A program made the position numbers and the translations under genes. Below the pieces are notes generated by a model that was not told the origin of the DNA, ran no database searches, and saw only the letters and a program-made list of their open reading frames with translations. This document shows, piece after piece, positions 2 to 7,825 of a stretch of DNA of 7,825 nt; position 1 is the first letter of the stretch; the number at the start of each line of letters is the position of its first letter. The stretch is taken from positions 1 through 7,825 of the forward strand of contig SLGR01000083.1 of the NCBI GenBank assembly GCA_007136585.1. Reading direction: 5' to 3'. Source of the stretch: Candidatus Sumerlaeota bacterium. Its GTDB lineage: Bacteria > CG03 > SLGR01.

Positions 2-850
2 GCGCAGGTGCTGATAAAGTTTCTTTTAAACCAGGTAACCCGGAGCGAGCTTGAGTATTTCCGGTCCTCGGCGGATGAGTTCGGGGAGAGGTTTGAGCGT
101 ATAAGCCGTTTGCGCCCGCGGCTCGGGAATCGCCTGGACGGTGTTTTACACTCACTTGCCCCGTATGTTGAGGAGATGAGCGTTTTTTATGAGCTTGCCC
201 TTGAGCGTGACGAGTATTTCGTTAATAACTTCATAAGTTCTCCGGGTAGGGGACTGGATCTTATGGTAATGGGAGGGTTTCACTCTGAGGGAGTGACGGA
301 GCTTCTGAGGGAGAAGGGTATCTCCTACAGCCTTGTTCTTCCGCGTGTGAGTTCGCACGAGAGCCATATAATAGAGACATACTACCGTTTCCTTAGGGGG
401 GACAATATACTTACCTACAATGAGCTCATAGACGAGCGTCTTGCTGTGAGCACGGCCTTCTCGCCGGTCCGTGAGAACAGCATCCTTGATAAACTTCCAG
501 TGAGTTTCGTAAACGAGCTTACCTTATATATAGAAGATAGCCGTAGAGCGCCCACCGCATCGGAAGTGGCGCGTGAGGCTCTTACCCTGATGGATGATTG
601 GCGTAAAGATTACGGTCGTGAGCGTGTGAGGGAAGATTTTGATTTCAGCGCGGAGGCGCAGGTATCGGAGGATTTAAACGAGGCGTATATTGCACTTGAT
701 CTAAACGGGCGCCGGCGTGTATGGCTCTCCTATATATCCGGGGAGCTCAGCCTTGCGGACCCTGCTGAGGGGGAGAGGTTTTTCAGTAGAGATGATGTAA
801 CGGAGGTTTCCCCGGCTGAGAGAGGTCTGGTGAGGCGCGCCGCGGAAATA
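2..850 (+). other. N-terminal module with GGFHSEG alpha/beta segment
   Basis: Residues 1-283 of the open frame. The first 80 residues look helical. Residues 87-94 (LMVMGGFH after LD) look like a beta strand ending in a glycine turn. They are followed by a helix (SEGVTELLREKG, 95-106) and a second strand (ISYSLVLPR, 107-115), which is a Rossmann-like beta-alpha-beta unit. H94 and E96 at the strand-to-helix turn are candidate functional residues. From memory, similar 'GGFHTEG...ISY...P' segments occur in very large uncharacterised proteins of Omnitrophota; I cannot confirm this here and know of no assigned activity. Arginine codon use (CGT-rich) differs from the rest of the gene. The upstream part of the module is cut off by the window edge. 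Confidence 0.4.
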
Positions 851-3800
851 TTCAGTTCCCGCCGCCGGCGTACTGTGGAAGAGGCGGCGGAGGTTGAAGC
901 TGCGGAAGAGTCAGAGGCGGAGTTCCTCCGGATTGAGCCCGCTCAAGATGATATCACCGACCGGGTCCGGGAGGCTATTGAAACTGCCCTGGAAGAAACG
1001 CGTGAGAATTACAGGGCCCAGAGCATACCCGAACTTCTCCGGATGCTGGGGAGGGATGATGAGAGCCGCCTGCACAGTCTTTTCCGTTACAACCTGGCCA
1101 GGGGTTTTACAGATGAACTGGTCCGCCGGGTTCCCGGAGTTATTAATGTCTGGGGTTTCGGAAGCACAGCAATGATGACAGCGGCCCGTAATTCAGATAT
1201 AGATATCCTTGTTGAAGTTGGCAGCGACTCTGCCCGCCGGGAGGCCTATGATTATTTTTCGCTGGTAAACAGCGCCGTGAAAACCAGGTTCGGAGATATA
1301 ATGCCGGGTCTTGAATTTGATATCTCCGGAAAGATAATGCTGCCGGAGGAAATACGGAGAGGAGAGGGTTTTGCCGCCGCGGCGCACAGTATTCACAGGC
1401 CGCCAGACAGACTTTACAGCGCTGACAGGGATATGGAGGAGGCGGAACCTGAATTCCTCCGCCTTGAGCCGGAAGAAGAGGTATATCCCGCGGAAGGCCT
1501 TCTTTATTCGGAGGTTGTTCTTACTCCCGGAGATATCGTAAGTAATATAACCGGAACCCGGCGCCCTCATGCTGGGGTAAGCGATACTTTAAGCGTAGTT
1601 GATCTGGGCAGGGAAGCGGTTTCGTATGCTTTTTCTGATTCAGTCCTTTCTTCACTTACCGGCATAAGAACCGGGAAAGAATCTTTCCTGGCGGGAAACT
1701 TCACTAACAGGGCCCTTATTACGGGAGCAAGAGAAGGTCATACGGATGACCTTAAAAGAGATATGACTCCCATAATCATAGTAAGGAGAGCTCCCCTTAT
1801 TGATATTTTAAGGGAAAGGCTGCAGACAGTGACGGAGGAGAGAATACATTTTTCCAGGGCCCTTAACCTTATCATAGAGAAGCTTTCAGCTGAAGACGGT
1901 TTAAACATTGACAGCGGGTACCTTGACAGGCTGCTTGAGGAGAACGGGTTAATTCTTTCAGAAGAAGAAAGATTTGAGATACTTATGATGGCGGAGGCTT
2001 CCGGGGAGAGTCAACACCCGCTGATAGAGGTGCTTCAGGCTGAGCTTGACAGGGGGAAGATACTTATAGGGTCACCGCTTTACAGAATAATAAGGGTTCT
2101 TATAGCCCAGCTCCAGGAAAATCCCGGCCTTGAAGTAACAGTTGAATATGTAGAGGAACTCCTTGAGAAGAATAACCTGGCCCTCTCCGCGGCAAACAGG
2201 ATCTATTTCTACAAGGAGCTCCTGGGCCTGGAACTGAAGGAGGAGTTCTGGGATTTTGATCTTAACAGGATAGGTGTCGTAAATGAGATCGCCCAGGAGC
2301 TAGACAAGCCCTACAGTATGATTACGGTTGAAGATTTCAAGGAAAGAGATTTTGCTTCGGTATTGGTTTATGAAGGAATTACAGTTCTGCCCGCCCTGGA
2401 TAGGCCCTTCGGAGAATTGGGAAAAGAAGATAATTTTTACCGCTGGATAAGAACCCAGGGGGACGAAGAACTATACGATAAACTCAAGGATATAAAAAAA
2501 CCCGTTAACAGGATAAGCTCCGGAGATATTGAAGGGTATAATATCAAGGGGATCATTCTCAAGTATCTTAAAGATAACGGTCTTCTTGAGCGGGTTGAGC
2601 GGTACGGCGCCGAGAAACTCACCACCATGGCAAGGGATTATAATAAAAAGACCAACCTTACCCCGGTTATACCGGCTATAATGGGATCTGACGGCGATCT
2701 TTACGGAAAATACGAGCTTCTTGCTGATAAATACTTTACAGAAGGGGTAATCAGTAATCTCAAGGAAGACTGGATCGCTGATAAGCATAGCCGCACCCAG
2801 ATCTTTTCACTCCTTTCTGACCTTCTCAGGGGAGAGTTTGCCGGACTGGCAGAGGAGATACTTAAAAACAGAGAGCTTATGGAACTTATATCCGAGGGAG
2901 AGGAACAGGCGGCTATATTCACCAACGCTTCTCTTATGCTGCTTCTTTCGGTGCACCCTTCGCTCTGGAGCGATATAATCCGGCACCCCATCTTTCTGGA
3001 CTCTCTGAAAGACAAGCAGTCGGCTAACAACTTCTACACTTTTGTATGCGGGAATAATTTCGGGGCGGGAAACCCCCTGCTCTACCTTATGGCGCTTTTA
3101 CCAGAAGAAGGACTGGAGGTTTTCAACCGGATAGATTTTCGCAGGGCCTTTTCACGTGAGGATCAAGGGGCTTACGCCGGGGCTGTGATGACCCTGGCTG
3201 CCGAAATGCTGGCAAACCGGAATATCCTTGAAACCGGGAGGGTCCCATCCGGAACAGTAGATATTTTCAGGGACTTCGGATTCACGGATAAGAGCGGTAA
3301 ATTGAATTACGAAGTTATTTTAAGGGATCCCTCTGATACCGAACTCTTTTCCGTTATGCTCTCCCTGGCCGGAAGTAATGCGGAGATGGCCTATTTTCTT
3401 CATTTAAACGAGATATTCTCAGAGGCGGCGCAGAGCCGCGAAAAAATGAGCTCACTGTATATGTTCTCAAAATCAGCGGGGCGCGTCGCGCGCGTTGATC
3501 TTGAGAGCGGCAGCGTGACAATAGCAGATAAGAGCTTTAAGCTTGAGACCCTGGAGGGTGATGCTCTTGATACACTGCGGCAGGTTGTTTTTAACCTGGG
3601 AACCTGGCAGATATACGCAAACCTGCTTTCATTCGGTAACATAGGAGAAGATCTGCTGAAAATGGTATTTCATATCTCATCCAGTTCCAGATACAGCGGA
3701 AGTCTTGAGGACTTCTTTAAAAACTTTAATCATTTTATTGAGTCTGCCTGGGTGCTGGATAATTTTTACAGTAAGGATCCCGAACTTGTAAGTATCCTGG

Positions 3801-6800
3801 TAAGCAGCCCTGACCTCCTTCTGAGTTTCGCGCTTCCCGGGACGGCCGAGAAGCTTGATATAGCACTGCCCGGCATATCCCAGTCCTCGGAAGTTGAGGT
3901 TAAAGAGGGGAAAGCCCGCCTGGCTGTTACTCCGGCGGCGCGGGAGAGCCTCGGGTATTTTACATCCGAGGAAGGGTATCTTCGGCTGGACAGGATACTG
4001 GAGGATCCGGATCAGGATGATTCGCAGGCCCAGGATGCGGCCGCGCTGGGTAGTATATTCGGAGGTGCCTTTAAATTTAAAACCAAGGTTACTTATACGG
4101 ATATTTTCAGCTCTATGAGCATGGTGGCTGCGCTTAACCCGGGGTTCGGAGAGTTCATTCTCAGAAACTATCCGGATATCGGGGAGTTCAAGGAGTTTCT
4201 TGACCAAAACCCCAACAGGATAGATAACCTTCTGCTTCTTGCCAGAACACTTAAGGATTTTGAGACAAAGACAGAGAAGATTGACCGTGATATCGAGAGC
4301 GCAGCTGGGGAGCTTTCAAAAGAGATACCTGAGGGAGAGACTCTTGCGGCCCGGTGGATGGCGATAAGGGAGACAATAAGCGGCGGGGTAAAAGCCCTTA
4401 AACCTGAGGAAATAAACAGGCTTATTAAGGAGACAGAGCATATAAACGAGGCTTTATCAGGTTCTGAAAAGAGCCAGGAGTTTTACCGGCTGGTAGAGAA
4501 GAGGCTGAAATTTGAAGAGGTTCGCCTTTATTTCTTTACCCCTGTAAAAGGAGATTTTAAGAAAAATCTCCTTACCGAGACGGAGCACCGGCCGGCCTTA
4601 ATAGACGGGACGAACGCTTTCTTCTTCTATACGGCTATCATAGACATATTATCCTCCAACGAAGAACTTGCCTATAAACTGCTGGATATGAAGGTTCCCC
4701 CGAAAATACTTGATATGGAGCTGTATAAGGAGGAACAGCATCCGGAAGGGATGAGTTTCAGGGAGTGGTTGGTTAATTATTCTCCCGGACCCCAAAACGC
4801 CCAGATTTTCAGCCGTTTCCTTACCTCAAATCTTGTGGATATGTATAAGGTCTCTCCCGGGATACTTGAGGCGCTTCCGTATATTATAGGGCATATGCAG
4901 GAGTTTCTTATAGCTTACGAGTTCTTTATGAAAGTTCCACTGAGAAAAGAGACCATACTCCATTTTCTCCAGCATCTGGATAAAATTTATGATCCCCGGG
5001 AAAACCTTGACAGGATCCGGGTTTTTGCCCCCGCAGTCTCCGTTTTTGCCGATCTTGTCGACAGGGGTATAATTAAGGGAGAGGAGGTGACCCTTCACGG
5101 GGTCAAGGACAGCTCAATAGAGCTCCTGGTAAAGAATCTCTGCGGAAGAGAAACCCCGGATGAGTATAGGCGGTGGATTAGCCGGGACCTGGTTGATGTC
5201 CTGAGGCAGGAGGGAAACCTCTCACCTTCGCTTCCCCTCAGCGTGCTTCTTATGCGTCTCGGATGGTCAAGGTTTAACGAGTGGCAGAATATACTTCTCA
5301 AGGCAGCCGTGGGGCGTCAGGGCCCGAGGGCAGGATTTCACGTTTACAAACCCAATCTTTTGAGAAGGGCTTACAGGTTTATGACCAAACTGGATGTAAA
5401 CAGGGATGAGAAAGAAGAGTATTTCGCGCTTGCCCTTCTTGGCGCCCAGCAGATGATGTATCACAGCCCCAGGCTTGACGAGACTTTTTATCCCGGGTGG
5501 CACCGCAGGCACCTTTTTTATTCAAATGCTGTCCACAAGATAGATAACCCCTGGAATAACGCTTTTTACAGTCCCCTGTTTGACCTGATAGGGCTGATGC
5601 CTCTGGCCTATGCCTCCGAGTTCGGGCACGCTCTCGGAGCGAGACTAAAGAACGCGTATGCCAATTTTGAGTTCCAGGACAGGATACAGGTTCTGATGGG
5701 GCGGCTTAGCCAGTCCCGGGTTATTGAGGTGGCTTGGGAGTCGGCGGACCTCGTAAGGGAGTTCGCCGAAGAGGTTTTTGAGGCAAAGGATGATTCGGGT
5801 CAGATGCTGCTCAAGGAGCAGGTTCTGAAAACCGCCGAAAGGTTTATCGCCACCAAAAGGAGACGGAAAAATTTCTCAGCTCTTATTGAGGCCGGAAGGC
5901 CCCGGGAGGCCTGGGAACTCTTTACGGACGGTGAGAAATACAGTATGGGTATCATGCTTTTAAATAGTGACCTGGACTTAGAAGAAGGAACCCGTCTTTA
6001 TCAGCTCCGGCGAATGGCCCTGGATGCCAGGGAGACCGCGGCCGGGGAAATTGAAACCAAGCTCGGTGTAATGCTTCTCTCTATAATAGGGTCTCTTTCC
6101 TTTAAGGATGTTCCTATACGGACCCACGATTTATTTGAAGACGCCGACGGGCCCCACATAATGGCTGAAGTTATTTCAAGGGACGTGGCGGTTAAGTTGG
6201 CGGACCTTGCTATAAAAACAAATGTAAGCGGGGAGGCCTTCCCCTTTGTAATTGCCCGCTTTATGGAATGGTTCCTTGAAACCCTTGTTCAGAAGCATAT
6301 AAACGACTGGCAGCCCGCTTCGGAACTCATTGAAAGCGTTGATGAGGAGATGGTCCTGAACTGGCTGAAACAGGGAGCCGCCGAGGGGATTATCTCTTCC
6401 GGGCCCCGCCCTTACAGGGGTTTTCGGGAAATATGGGAGTACTGCGCCGAAGCCGGGAAGAGCGTCGTTAAGTTTATCGGGGAAGATTCCTGGCCCGCCC
6501 GGCTGACGATTATGGTTTACCGTATACCCCTTAAGCTTATTAACCTTATTGGGACCGTGACAAGGGTTCCCTATACGGCCGGTAAAAGGATCCGGAGAGA
6601 GATATCAAGCGGAAGGTACAGATATGTATTATCCCGTGAGAACCTTTTTTATATCACCTCTCTCATCTCAGGAGCACGGGAAAGGGCCCTCTCTTCCAGA
6701 GTTGAGGATATTGAGAGAGATATATCCGCCCGCGGTTACGGGGATATAATTGAGTTTATGGATGCTTCCCTGAAAGATGCCGCTCCGGGGGAGAAAGAAA

Positions 6801-7825
6801 ATATAATACGGGAAATCTGGGTCTTTGCCGCAGGGAGACGGGAGGCGCCCCGGTGGCTGGCCTCGGCCCCGGTTATAATAAACGAAATACTTGAGATGCT
6901 TGCCGGCAGCCCCGCCGCTTCTTCCGAGGAAAGAACCGCCGCGGCCGAGCAGATATGGGAAAATATCACAGGCGGCGTAGCCCCCGCAGGATGGCTTGCC
7001 CGCATAACAATGGAAGCCTCTTCAGAGCTGGAGGGCTCGGGTGTAACGGATCCGGATGAGAGACTCGCTATTATAAGCGATGTAGTATCAGATAATTTCC
7101 GGGAGGTCTCGGCTGACCGGGAAAGCAGGGAAAACCGGAGGATAGCCCAGCGCCTCTGGGAGTCCGAAAGAGACGAGAGGGCCCCTCCGGTCTGGCTTAT
7201 AGAAGCGGCCCTGGATATATTTGAGCATACAGGAAGTTTTACCTCCGATATGAGCTACGAGTCCCGCAGGCGGGCCCTGAACAAGGCCTGGCTTGAGATA
7301 AACTCCCGCCGCGGCCCGCCCGAATGGATACTTGCCTACGCCTACCTGAAGTTGGGCGTCCCCGCCGGGGAGATAGCGCTCAAGGAGGCCTTTGCCCGGC
7401 TTGTACGGCAGGGGCAGCTCGGAAACTGGCCGGTTTACGAGGGAGAAAAAGAAAAGTTCATTGAGAGCCTCTCCGGAGAAAAGGAAAAAGAGGCGGTATC
7501 GGATTTCCTGAAGTTTCTAAAGGCTATAGAACACAACCTGAGCAGGGGAAGGATAATTATCCAGGGCGCCGCGGATTTAGGCCGGGAGACTCCTTTACTT
7601 CCTTCCGGGGATCTGCGCGGTTTAATAAGCGCCGATGAAGTGCCCGCCCCGTCATACGAGGTTCCTGCCGCGCACCCCCAGGAGGCAGCTCCCGCATCGT
7701 TTCTCCGGGGGGTATATGATTTCGCCCGGGGTGCTTTCGGGTCCCTGACGGCGAAAGCCTCTCTTATCACCGTGATGGTCTTTAATGTTATAACTCTCGG
7801 CCCCTCACTGTACTTTTTACCGGAA
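2..7825 (+). CDS. Internal part of a giant multidomain protein with a nucleotidyltransferase domain (both ends missing)
   Basis: One uninterrupted frame runs through the window, 2608 codons from GCG at base 2 to GAA at the last base, with no stop. Start and end lie outside. The first in-frame ATG (base 176) sits inside well-formed coding sequence with no spaced ribosome binding site, so it is not the start. The product is acidic and mostly helical. Domain order: alpha/beta GGFH segment (residues 87-116), acidic linker (287-313), nucleotidyltransferase core (G387-S388, D399, D401, probable D440), second acidic linker (478-493), helical repeats (618-780), long helical scaffold with P-x9-11-P units, W-x11-W repeats (2273-2442), Pro/Ala linker, and a hydrophobic segment (2586-2606). 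Residues about 1570-1800 and 1900-2260 are helical with no family I recognise. Catalysis of nucleotidyl transfer is inferred from the motif; the substrate is unknown. Giant genes of this style are known in Omnitrophota. I am very sure of the open frame and moderately sure of the domain call. Confidence 0.95.
857..940 (+). other. Basic-to-acidic linker 1 with EAEFLRIEP motif
   Basis: Residues 286-313. Four consecutive arginines (287-290) are followed at once by an Ala/Glu-rich run (293-307) and the motif EESEAEFLRIEP (302-313). The composition suggests an exposed, flexible joint between the N-terminal module and the nucleotidyltransferase domain. The last 12 residues recur at 479-490, on the other side of that domain, with 9 of 12 identical. 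Confidence 0.6.
1022..1398 (+). other. Minimal nucleotidyltransferase domain (pol-beta superfamily)
   Basis: Residues about 341-466. The segment VWGFGSTAMM (383-392) followed by NSDIDILVEV (397-406) fits the superfamily signature hG[GS]-x(9-13)-Dh[DE]h: G387-S388, ten residues, then D399-I400-D401 in a hydrophobic strand. In known members the two aspartates bind the metal ions that activate the nucleotide, and a third acid comes from a later strand. Here GLEFDISGKI (436-445) offers D440, or less likely E438. Two predicted helices (SIPELLRML and LFRYNLARGF) precede the core, as is common in minimal (MNT-type) enzymes. All key acids are present, so the domain may be active. Substrate could be a nucleotide, antibiotic-like small molecule, protein or RNA; nothing nearby decides this. 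Domain edges are approximate. Confidence 0.75.
1433..1480 (+). other. Acidic linker 2 with EPEFLRLEP motif
   Basis: Residues 478-493: EEAEPEFLRLEP (479-490) followed by EEE. It is a near copy of linker 1 and lies just past the nucleotidyltransferase domain. The two copies use different synonymous codons (for example CGG versus CGC for Arg and GAG versus GAA for Glu), so this is not a recent DNA duplication. It probably forms a flexible hinge or a short docking motif. Confidence 0.6.
1853..2344 (+). repeat. Tandem helical protein repeat, two clear copies and a divergent third
   Basis: Residues about 618-781. Copy 1 has GLNIDSGYLDRLLEENGLIL (633-652) and continues to I660. Copy 2 has GLEVTVEYVEELLEKNNLAL (709-728) and continues to F736. 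Over these 28 aligned positions I count 11 identities with no gap, at a period of 76 residues. Both copies are preceded by an amphipathic helix (LNLIIEKL and RVLIAQLQ). A third, weaker copy begins at I763: IAQ and then P770 and TVE (775-777) match IAQ (701-703), P708 and TVE (713-715) of copy 2 at a period of 62. The pattern suggests a helical bundle or a helix-turn-helix-like unit. I do not recognise the family. Confidence 0.6.
4001..4051 (+). other. Acidic Asp/Gln/Ala linker
   Basis: Residues 1334-1350 read EDPDQDDSQAQDAAALG. The stretch is polar, acidic and poor in large hydrophobics, and it separates helical blocks on either side. It probably marks a domain boundary. A short, more strand-like region lies before it (about 1284-1325), including SSEVEVKEG and ARLAVTP. 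Confidence 0.45.
4217..4525 (+). other. Charged coiled-coil-like helical stretch
   Basis: Residues about 1406-1508. Long runs rich in Glu, Lys, Arg, Leu and Ile, such as LLLLARTLKDFETKTEKIDR (1410-1429) and PEEINRLIKETEHINEAL, have hydrophobic residues spaced roughly three to four apart. A break at EIPEGE separates two helices, so an antiparallel hairpin is plausible. It may serve as a spacer or self-association surface. No function can be assigned. Confidence 0.35.
4548..4573. repeat. Perfect 11-bp inverted repeat (hairpin) inside the coding frame
   Basis: AAGGAGATTTT (4548-4558) is followed by a four-base loop AAGA (4559-4562) and its exact reverse complement AAAATCTCCTT (4563-4573). The next outer pair is A-A, so the stem stops at 11 bp. 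It encodes the end of VKGDFKKNLL. The bases after the stem (ACCGAGACGG) hold no T run, so this is not a standard intrinsic terminator. Confidence 0.6.
5459..5650 (+). other. His- and aromatic-rich patch with SEFGHALG segment
   Basis: Residues 1820-1883. Histidines at 1821, 1834, 1837 and 1845 and many Tyr, Trp and Phe residues are followed by a hydrophobic helix (LIGLMPLAYA) and then SEFGHALGARL (1872-1882). The last segment resembles the HEFGHALG form of the HExxH zinc-protease helix, with serine (TCC, 5615-5617) where the first zinc-binding histidine would be; E1873 and H1876 are kept. It could be a lost metalloprotease site or a chance match. No third zinc ligand is evident, so I do not call a protease. 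Confidence 0.25.
6788..7363 (+). repeat. Four protein repeats with fixed W-x11-W spacing
   Basis: Residues about 2263-2454. The pairs are W2273/W2285, W2319/W2331, W2386/W2398 and W2430/W2442, each exactly 12 residues apart. The units read IWVFAAGRREAPRWLAS, IWENITGGVAPAGWLAR, LWESERDERAPPVWLIE and AWLEINSRRGPPEWILA. Each has a charged Arg/Glu-rich helix before the first Trp, one or two prolines two or three residues before the second Trp, then Leu or Ile and an Ala/Ile/Leu helix. Distances between units are 46, 67 and 44 residues. This looks like a helix-turn-helix solenoid of a family I do not recognise. The scaffold role is inferred. Confidence 0.7.
7592..7699 (+). other. Pro/Ala/Glu-rich interdomain linker
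   Basis: Residues 2531-2566, including PLLPSG and EVPAPSYEVPAAHPQEAAPA. High Pro, Ala and Glu with few large hydrophobics indicates a flexible tether between the W-x11-W repeat block and the hydrophobic segment that follows. Confidence 0.6.
7757..7819 (+). other. Candidate transmembrane segment near the window end
   Basis: Residues 2586-2606 (ASLITVMVFNVITLGPSLYF plus L) form a 21-residue run with no charged residue, preceded by K2585 and an arginine-bearing stretch (FLRGVYDFARGAFG). Length and composition fit a membrane-spanning helix, although the Asn and the Gly-Pro make it imperfect. Being next to the truncated end, it may open a membrane-bound module further downstream. By the positive-inside rule the residues before it would lie in the cytoplasm. 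Confidence 0.5.

Follow-up and report, generated by a model that had tools for sequence, protein, structure and literature searches.

A stop-free contig of a Candidatus Sumerlaeota bacterium probably represents an internal part of a giant mosaic gene with a conserved TIKI-like head

The stretch of DNA analyzed here (the window) is 7,825 nucleotides long and represents the entire contig G000:C165 (length 7825) of a MAG of 1.88 Mb, which consists of 257 contigs and is 88% complete. A frame scan of the window revealed a stop-free frame of 2608 codons (2..7825, forward strand) that is open at both ends, for which a chance occurrence of log10 P ~ -58 was calculated from the base composition. The single frame of at least 2608 codons claimed by the first-pass annotation is thus confirmed, running from base 2 to 7825 without a stop. 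The annotation had also stated that there is no gene boundary. None is present in the window, but the sequence spans an entire contig, so that it stops at contig ends on both sides and the absence of boundaries reflects this. We regard the frame as the internal part of one giant gene with start and stop located off-contig. With 7.8 kb, cut by the contig ends, the window compares to a threshold of >20 kb in the giant-ORF definition of Seymour et al. An Rfam scan of the window and the head-bearing contigs gave no match, and no DNA direct repeats were found at window positions 700-1700.

The frame starts within a conserved N-terminal region of approximately 500 amino acids, which we term the head; window residues 1 to approximately 150 are its last third. 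This TIKI/Ere/ChaN-like C-terminal third (2..463, forward strand; residues 1-154) was delimited using alignment A1 (12 proteins from the same order and the window, all with the conserved head), a profile, of which the window matches positions 361-586, and the predicted fold of the homologues. A second alignment (A4) contains 44 heads from several phyla and is the basis of the head residue numbers given below. Two residues that are invariant in A4 (44/44) are located in the window: Arg69 (206..208, forward strand) is the head's Arg410, and His94 (281-283), the last residue of a GGFH motif (272..283, forward strand), is the active-site-like His437.

Complete heads start with a signal-like N-terminus, with lysine before a hydrophobic stretch and AxA-like residues after it, followed by a domain of approximately 450 amino acids. 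Pfam searches with ten in-order heads gave no match above the cut-offs, PF04187 (ChaN, Tiki) was weakly matched by 6 of the 44 heads (best E 0.0032), and NCBIfam yielded no consistent family for the heads. Comparison of the head profile to solved structures by sequence returned only chance matches to helical calcium-binding proteins. Two AlphaFold models of the head were calculated from different alignments, the second with a pLDDT of 85.8 and a pTM of 0.83. The core sheet of this model matches ChaN (2g5g, Z 9.4), EreC (6xcs, 8.7), HopBA1 (5t09, 8.1), Bcr135 (3b55, 7.8-7.9) and RRSP (5w6l, 6.4), which all belong to the TIKI/Ere/ChaN superfamily, whose core fold is a central parallel beta-sheet with helices on its flanks, and the model from the other alignment gives the same set of structural matches. 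Most of the other high-scoring structural matches use the helical insert of the head alone. Foldseek E-values are non-significant (>0.001), thus assignment of the fold rests on the cluster of Z-scores together with the residue pattern.

The active site of the TIKI superfamily consists of 2His/2Glu and a conserved basic residue; RRSP requires Glu3900, His3902, Glu3930, His4030 and Arg4001, and Bcr135 pairs His85 with Glu113 (PMC6254334). The heads contain a DxH motif (Asp54-x-His56), Glu84, Arg410 and His437 of the GGFH motif. His56, Glu84, Arg410 and His437 are present in all 44 heads and Asp54 in 43 of them, and the His-Glu spacing of 28 is identical to that of H3902-E3930 in RRSP and H85-E113 in Bcr135. 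Four of the five active-site residues therefore match the superfamily definition, and the fifth, the first Glu, is conservatively changed to Asp54. The head resembles the superfamily in its predicted core fold, the H...E pair 28 residues apart, the arginine and the second histidine; it differs in its first acidic residue (Asp instead of Glu), in a long helical insert and in its position at the N-terminus of giant proteins. On the basis of predicted fold and residue pattern, we regard the head as a probable TIKI-type hydrolase.

Downstream of the head, the window contains a segment with an acidic linker (741..981, forward strand) that shows 85-91% DNA identity to the ends of contigs C148, C163, C255 and C26. 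These four contigs start just past the head, in the segment that matches window residues 248-330, and the first 118-121 bases of C148, C255 and C26 are identical, as expected where an assembly graph branches from a repeated head. The acidic linker is shared by the window, C148, C255 and C26 up to an LEPEE or similar motif, after which the sequences are unrelated; C163 diverges from them slightly earlier. The body of C148 encodes glutamate dehydrogenase (GDH) after the linker, followed by MTTB, GlpX and PPDK domains. Other bodies contain SecA with intact Walker and DEAD-type motifs, adenylate kinase, GH65, GH94 and GH130, as well as PLD, VanW and glycosyltransferase domains. Residues 1073-2216 of C148 match 744-1893 of C163 at 77% while the preceding parts differ, showing that bodies exchange modules as well.

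In the window, the head/body junction carries the linker motif EAEFLRIEP (914..940, forward strand), and a second copy, EPEFLRLEP (1445..1471, forward strand), is located on the far side of a predicted nucleotidyltransferase domain. This domain (NTP_transf_2; 1106..1243, forward strand; residues 369-414, with GSTAMMTAARNSDIDILVEV) scores just above the Pfam gathering threshold (22 bits at a cut-off of 21, E 2.2e-4) and contains the GS...DxD motif (GSTAMMTAARNSDIDI), so that both profile and motif support it; a third Asp is possibly located in LEFDISGK. Neither this domain nor the linkers and the TIKI-like head had been recognized in the first-pass annotation. For most of the body, approximately residues 500-1570, no relatives were identified. 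An uncharacterised module (4709..6571, forward strand) shows 28-29% identity to C250 and partly matches an 11,860-codon frame on contig C25 of genome G003, the only relatives found; a comparison of the module to solved structures returned nothing. Further downstream, a W-x(n)-APxWL-like motif was detected by eye in four degenerate copies (6809..7330, forward strand; residues 2270-2443; significance not computed); this stretch probably forms helical repeats. A hydropathy scan predicts a single membrane-spanning segment in the window (7745..7801, forward strand; residues 2582-2600).

Window residues 2-271 recur, completely or in part, in contigs C110, C161, C178, C24 and C17 of the MAG and in three genomes from its family or order. 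In those copies that have a visible upstream stop, the segment matching window residue 2 is located 356-401 codons into the frame, which predicts the missing start of the window gene approximately 1.1-1.2 kb upstream. A head fragment on C243 (residues 1-208) was considered as the unique missing start and dropped, since C148, C163, C255 and C26 likewise have no heads and the pairing is ambiguous. At least five further giant genes of the MAG have the conserved head, and the head profile matches 7 places in the MAG and 13, 3 and 1 places in the three relatives. Of 56 sampled MAG contigs, seven consist almost entirely of one frame, the longest having 6000 codons and ending at a stop; the giant frames analyzed in the MAG amount to 50,087 codons or 8% of the assembly, which is a lower bound. 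Genome G003 contains two frames of at least 13,409 and 11,860 codons, one behind the other on the same strand, and a third of at least 9,931 codons, all free of masked bases; its frames that share head or tail measure 29.8, 35.6 and 40.2 kb. Outside the order, there are frames with 13,841 and 9,720 codons that contain no masked positions; the lengths of frames there beyond those checked for masking may be inflated by masked bases. A frame of 24,620 codons in G242, a genome from another phylum, was discarded, as 24,001 of its residues correspond to masked bases. The smallest member observed is a 1098-codon frame (L043 2239-5532) that consists essentially of head and tail.

Among paralogous heads, bodies and tails, dN/dS is 0.12-0.25 where synonymous sites are unsaturated, therefore the giant genes are not decaying but under purifying selection. 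Together with the conservation of parts of the C165 frame in paralogues and relatives, these values from elsewhere in the family indicate that the frame is protein-coding. The reading as a giant mosaic gene in the first-pass annotation is likewise supported.

A tail of approximately 300 amino acids is common to the giant frames that run to a stop, with 11 matches in the MAG, 12 in G001, 5 in G004 and 2 weak ones in G003; none was detected in 17 head-bearing genomes outside the phylum. Among family members the N-terminal head is constant, as is the C-terminal tail within this order of bacteria; the body between them varies. The tail is followed by the next head on the same strand, resulting in tandem units. 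Between tail and head there is usually a conserved gene for a membrane protein of approximately 180-200 amino acids that ends at or near the start of the giant gene and belongs to no Pfam family. This companion gene was located upstream of giant heads at L032 1411-1989, L088 3612-4211, L037 2039-2635, L042 2024-2575, L043 5563-6096 and L051 14755-15351. In most, not all, in-order heads a hairpin with a T-run is found around the 3' end of the companion, typically 12-35 bases before the start codon of the head; a comparable hairpin within 40 bases was present in none of 178 ordinary frames. This arrangement suggests that transcription is controlled between companion and giant gene. Reading the hairpins as a free attenuator leader was revised, since they are located within the 3' end of the companion gene or shortly behind it.

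Several other genes are encoded nearby. Response-regulator receiver proteins are located close to giant genes at L037 2639-3412, L042 1551-1934 and the end of C20 (L107), and an RHS/YD-repeat-like protein of 379-383 amino acids is encoded upstream of companion and giant gene in two genomes (L042 428-1564; L049). By eye, the region upstream of the 9,931-codon frame (G003:C42, 1-34 kb; L050, L051) encodes secreted-looking proteins and a cluster for carbohydrate uptake that includes an ABC transporter.

The amino acid composition of the giant frames differs from that of ordinary ones. Cysteine accounts for 0.13% of residues in giant frames of the MAG compared to 0.97% in its ordinary frames, and Glu and Asp are enriched 1.35-fold and 1.19-fold. 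G003 shows the same contrast (0.17-0.35% versus 1.06% Cys), which is weaker and more variable in G001 (0.14-0.70% Cys in giant frames). The Cys-poor, acidic composition and the signal-like N-terminus favour a location outside the cytoplasm, and the giant proteins are probably exported. Counter to this, the GDH, adenylate kinase, SecA and PPDK bodies normally need cytosolic ATP or NAD.

The head was detected in 4 of 16 genomes of the MAG's phylum, in 9 of 44 genomes of the phylum of G242 (approximately 30 scored copies across several genomes) and in 70 of 340 genomes of the phylum of G214. Neither of these last two phylum lists includes the head-bearing genomes G157 and G130, thus the head spans at least four phyla. 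Assignment of the DNA to Omnitrophota in the first-pass annotation did not hold: the MAG's phylum is represented by only 16 genomes, compared to 276 Omnitrophota species in 2023 (PMC10066038), and the named relatives of the window are MAGs deposited as 'Elusimicrobia bacterium', whose isolate names point to soda-lake sediment and Zodletone spring as habitats. The more general statement that giant mosaic genes of this type are known in such lineages agrees with the literature (PMC10066038; PMC12057145), where giant genes have been reported with Omnitrophota, Elusimicrobia and CG03 named (PMC12057145). For the MAG, a small phylum like CG03 would be a plausible placement.

On balance, we favour the explanation that C165 covers an internal portion of a gene from a family that encodes giant mosaic enzyme proteins, which are probably exported. 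The signal peptide would direct the chain through Sec, the head would act as a TIKI/Ere-type hydrolase outside the cytoplasm, and the tail may anchor or release the product. Bodies would be swapped at the linker behind the head, so that one delivery frame carries different enzymes; the cargo of the window would be the nucleotidyltransferase domain and the uncharacterised module. The most likely use of such proteins would be as surface or secreted machines acting on other cells or on extracellular polymers. A wider proposal, which we consider rather doubtful, is that in several candidate phyla exported giant mosaic proteins have the TIKI-like head in common as their N-terminal module for delivery or processing, working as a self-processing polyprotein or as an export frame that receives interchangeable, unrelated enzyme bodies.

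Where the enzymes act and whether they stay connected separates two further explanations. The proteins might be multi-enzyme scaffolds in the cytosol or tethered to the membrane, with the N-terminal hydrophobic segment a mere anchor and the enzymes inside the cell, as the intact motifs of ATP- and NAD-dependent body enzymes would suggest; this is unlikely, because positively charged residues in front of the hydrophobic segment predict that the body is located outside, and Cys is strongly depleted even in giant frames that bear such enzymes. We judge it quite improbable that the proteins are polyproteins whose TIKI-like head acts as a peptidase, cleaving the chain at the acidic linkers after export and thereby freeing the enzymes. 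TIKI enzymes do include endopeptidases (PMC6254334), the active-site pattern is kept in the heads, the bodies are strings of otherwise independent enzymes, and the nucleotidyltransferase domain is flanked by the near-identical linkers EAEFLRIEP and EPEFLRLEP; however, the doubled linker was seen in the window alone, and a regular linker repeat along other bodies was looked for and none was found.

Two other explanations fare worse. An open frame resulting from an erroneous join or a missed frameshift is very unlikely: the MAG is fragmented into 257 contigs with repeats at contig ends, but these repeats broke contigs within heads instead of joining genes, conserved modules are found at the expected places and under purifying selection, and a different genome assembly contains frames that have 9,931 to at least 13,409 codons. 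For an ordinary giant adhesin or modular synthase only the length speaks, and this identity is hardly credible, since adhesin, carrier, ketosynthase and adenylation domains are absent from the window and from the sampled giant frames. Pfam and NCBIfam scans of the window bear out the earlier observation of no adhesin repeats and no PKS/NRPS domain, and both candidates were rejected.

Among known giant genes, two groups come closest to the family. Giant ORFs of >20 kb from Omnitrophota and related candidate phyla (Seymour et al. 2023, PMC10066038) share very long single frames, small genomes, few annotated domains, predicted membrane segments and poorly conserved bodies, but the MAG's phylum is a different, small one, and in the family described here variable bodies are enclosed by a head and a tail that are both constant and defined, in units that are arranged in tandem and accompanied by a companion gene. 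Giant1-5 of Apilactobacillus kunkeei (PMC12863079) share, by description, consecutive giant genes, an N-terminal signal peptide, a conserved C-terminal segment, purifying selection and a share of several % of the genome; they differ in having beta-solenoid N-termini and repeats, not enzyme-mosaic bodies. In the giant-ORF literature, the West-Roberts preprint aside, we found no description of the constant head and tail, tandem units or companion. As far as checked, it is new that a constant TIKI-like head marks long proteins in several phyla and is joined to variable bodies at a defined junction.

Giant bacterial genes are known, but have been described as poorly conserved and obscure in function. 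A constant head, here together with tail, companion and linker, makes them findable by profile even in broken assemblies, so that they can be counted and their module junctions mapped, and a small head domain with a predicted active site can be assayed in place of a megadalton protein. The findings also raise the question why GDH, adenylate kinase or SecA should be part of Cys-poor, probably exported proteins. Divergent SecA domains are reportedly present in most giant genes (West-Roberts et al. 2023 bioRxiv), and one giant frame of the MAG likewise carries SecA domains. These SecA-like ATPase domains are located at approximately 12796-13995 of C226 (L137) in a giant frame of 6000 codons; besides them, the MAG encodes an ordinary secA on C1.
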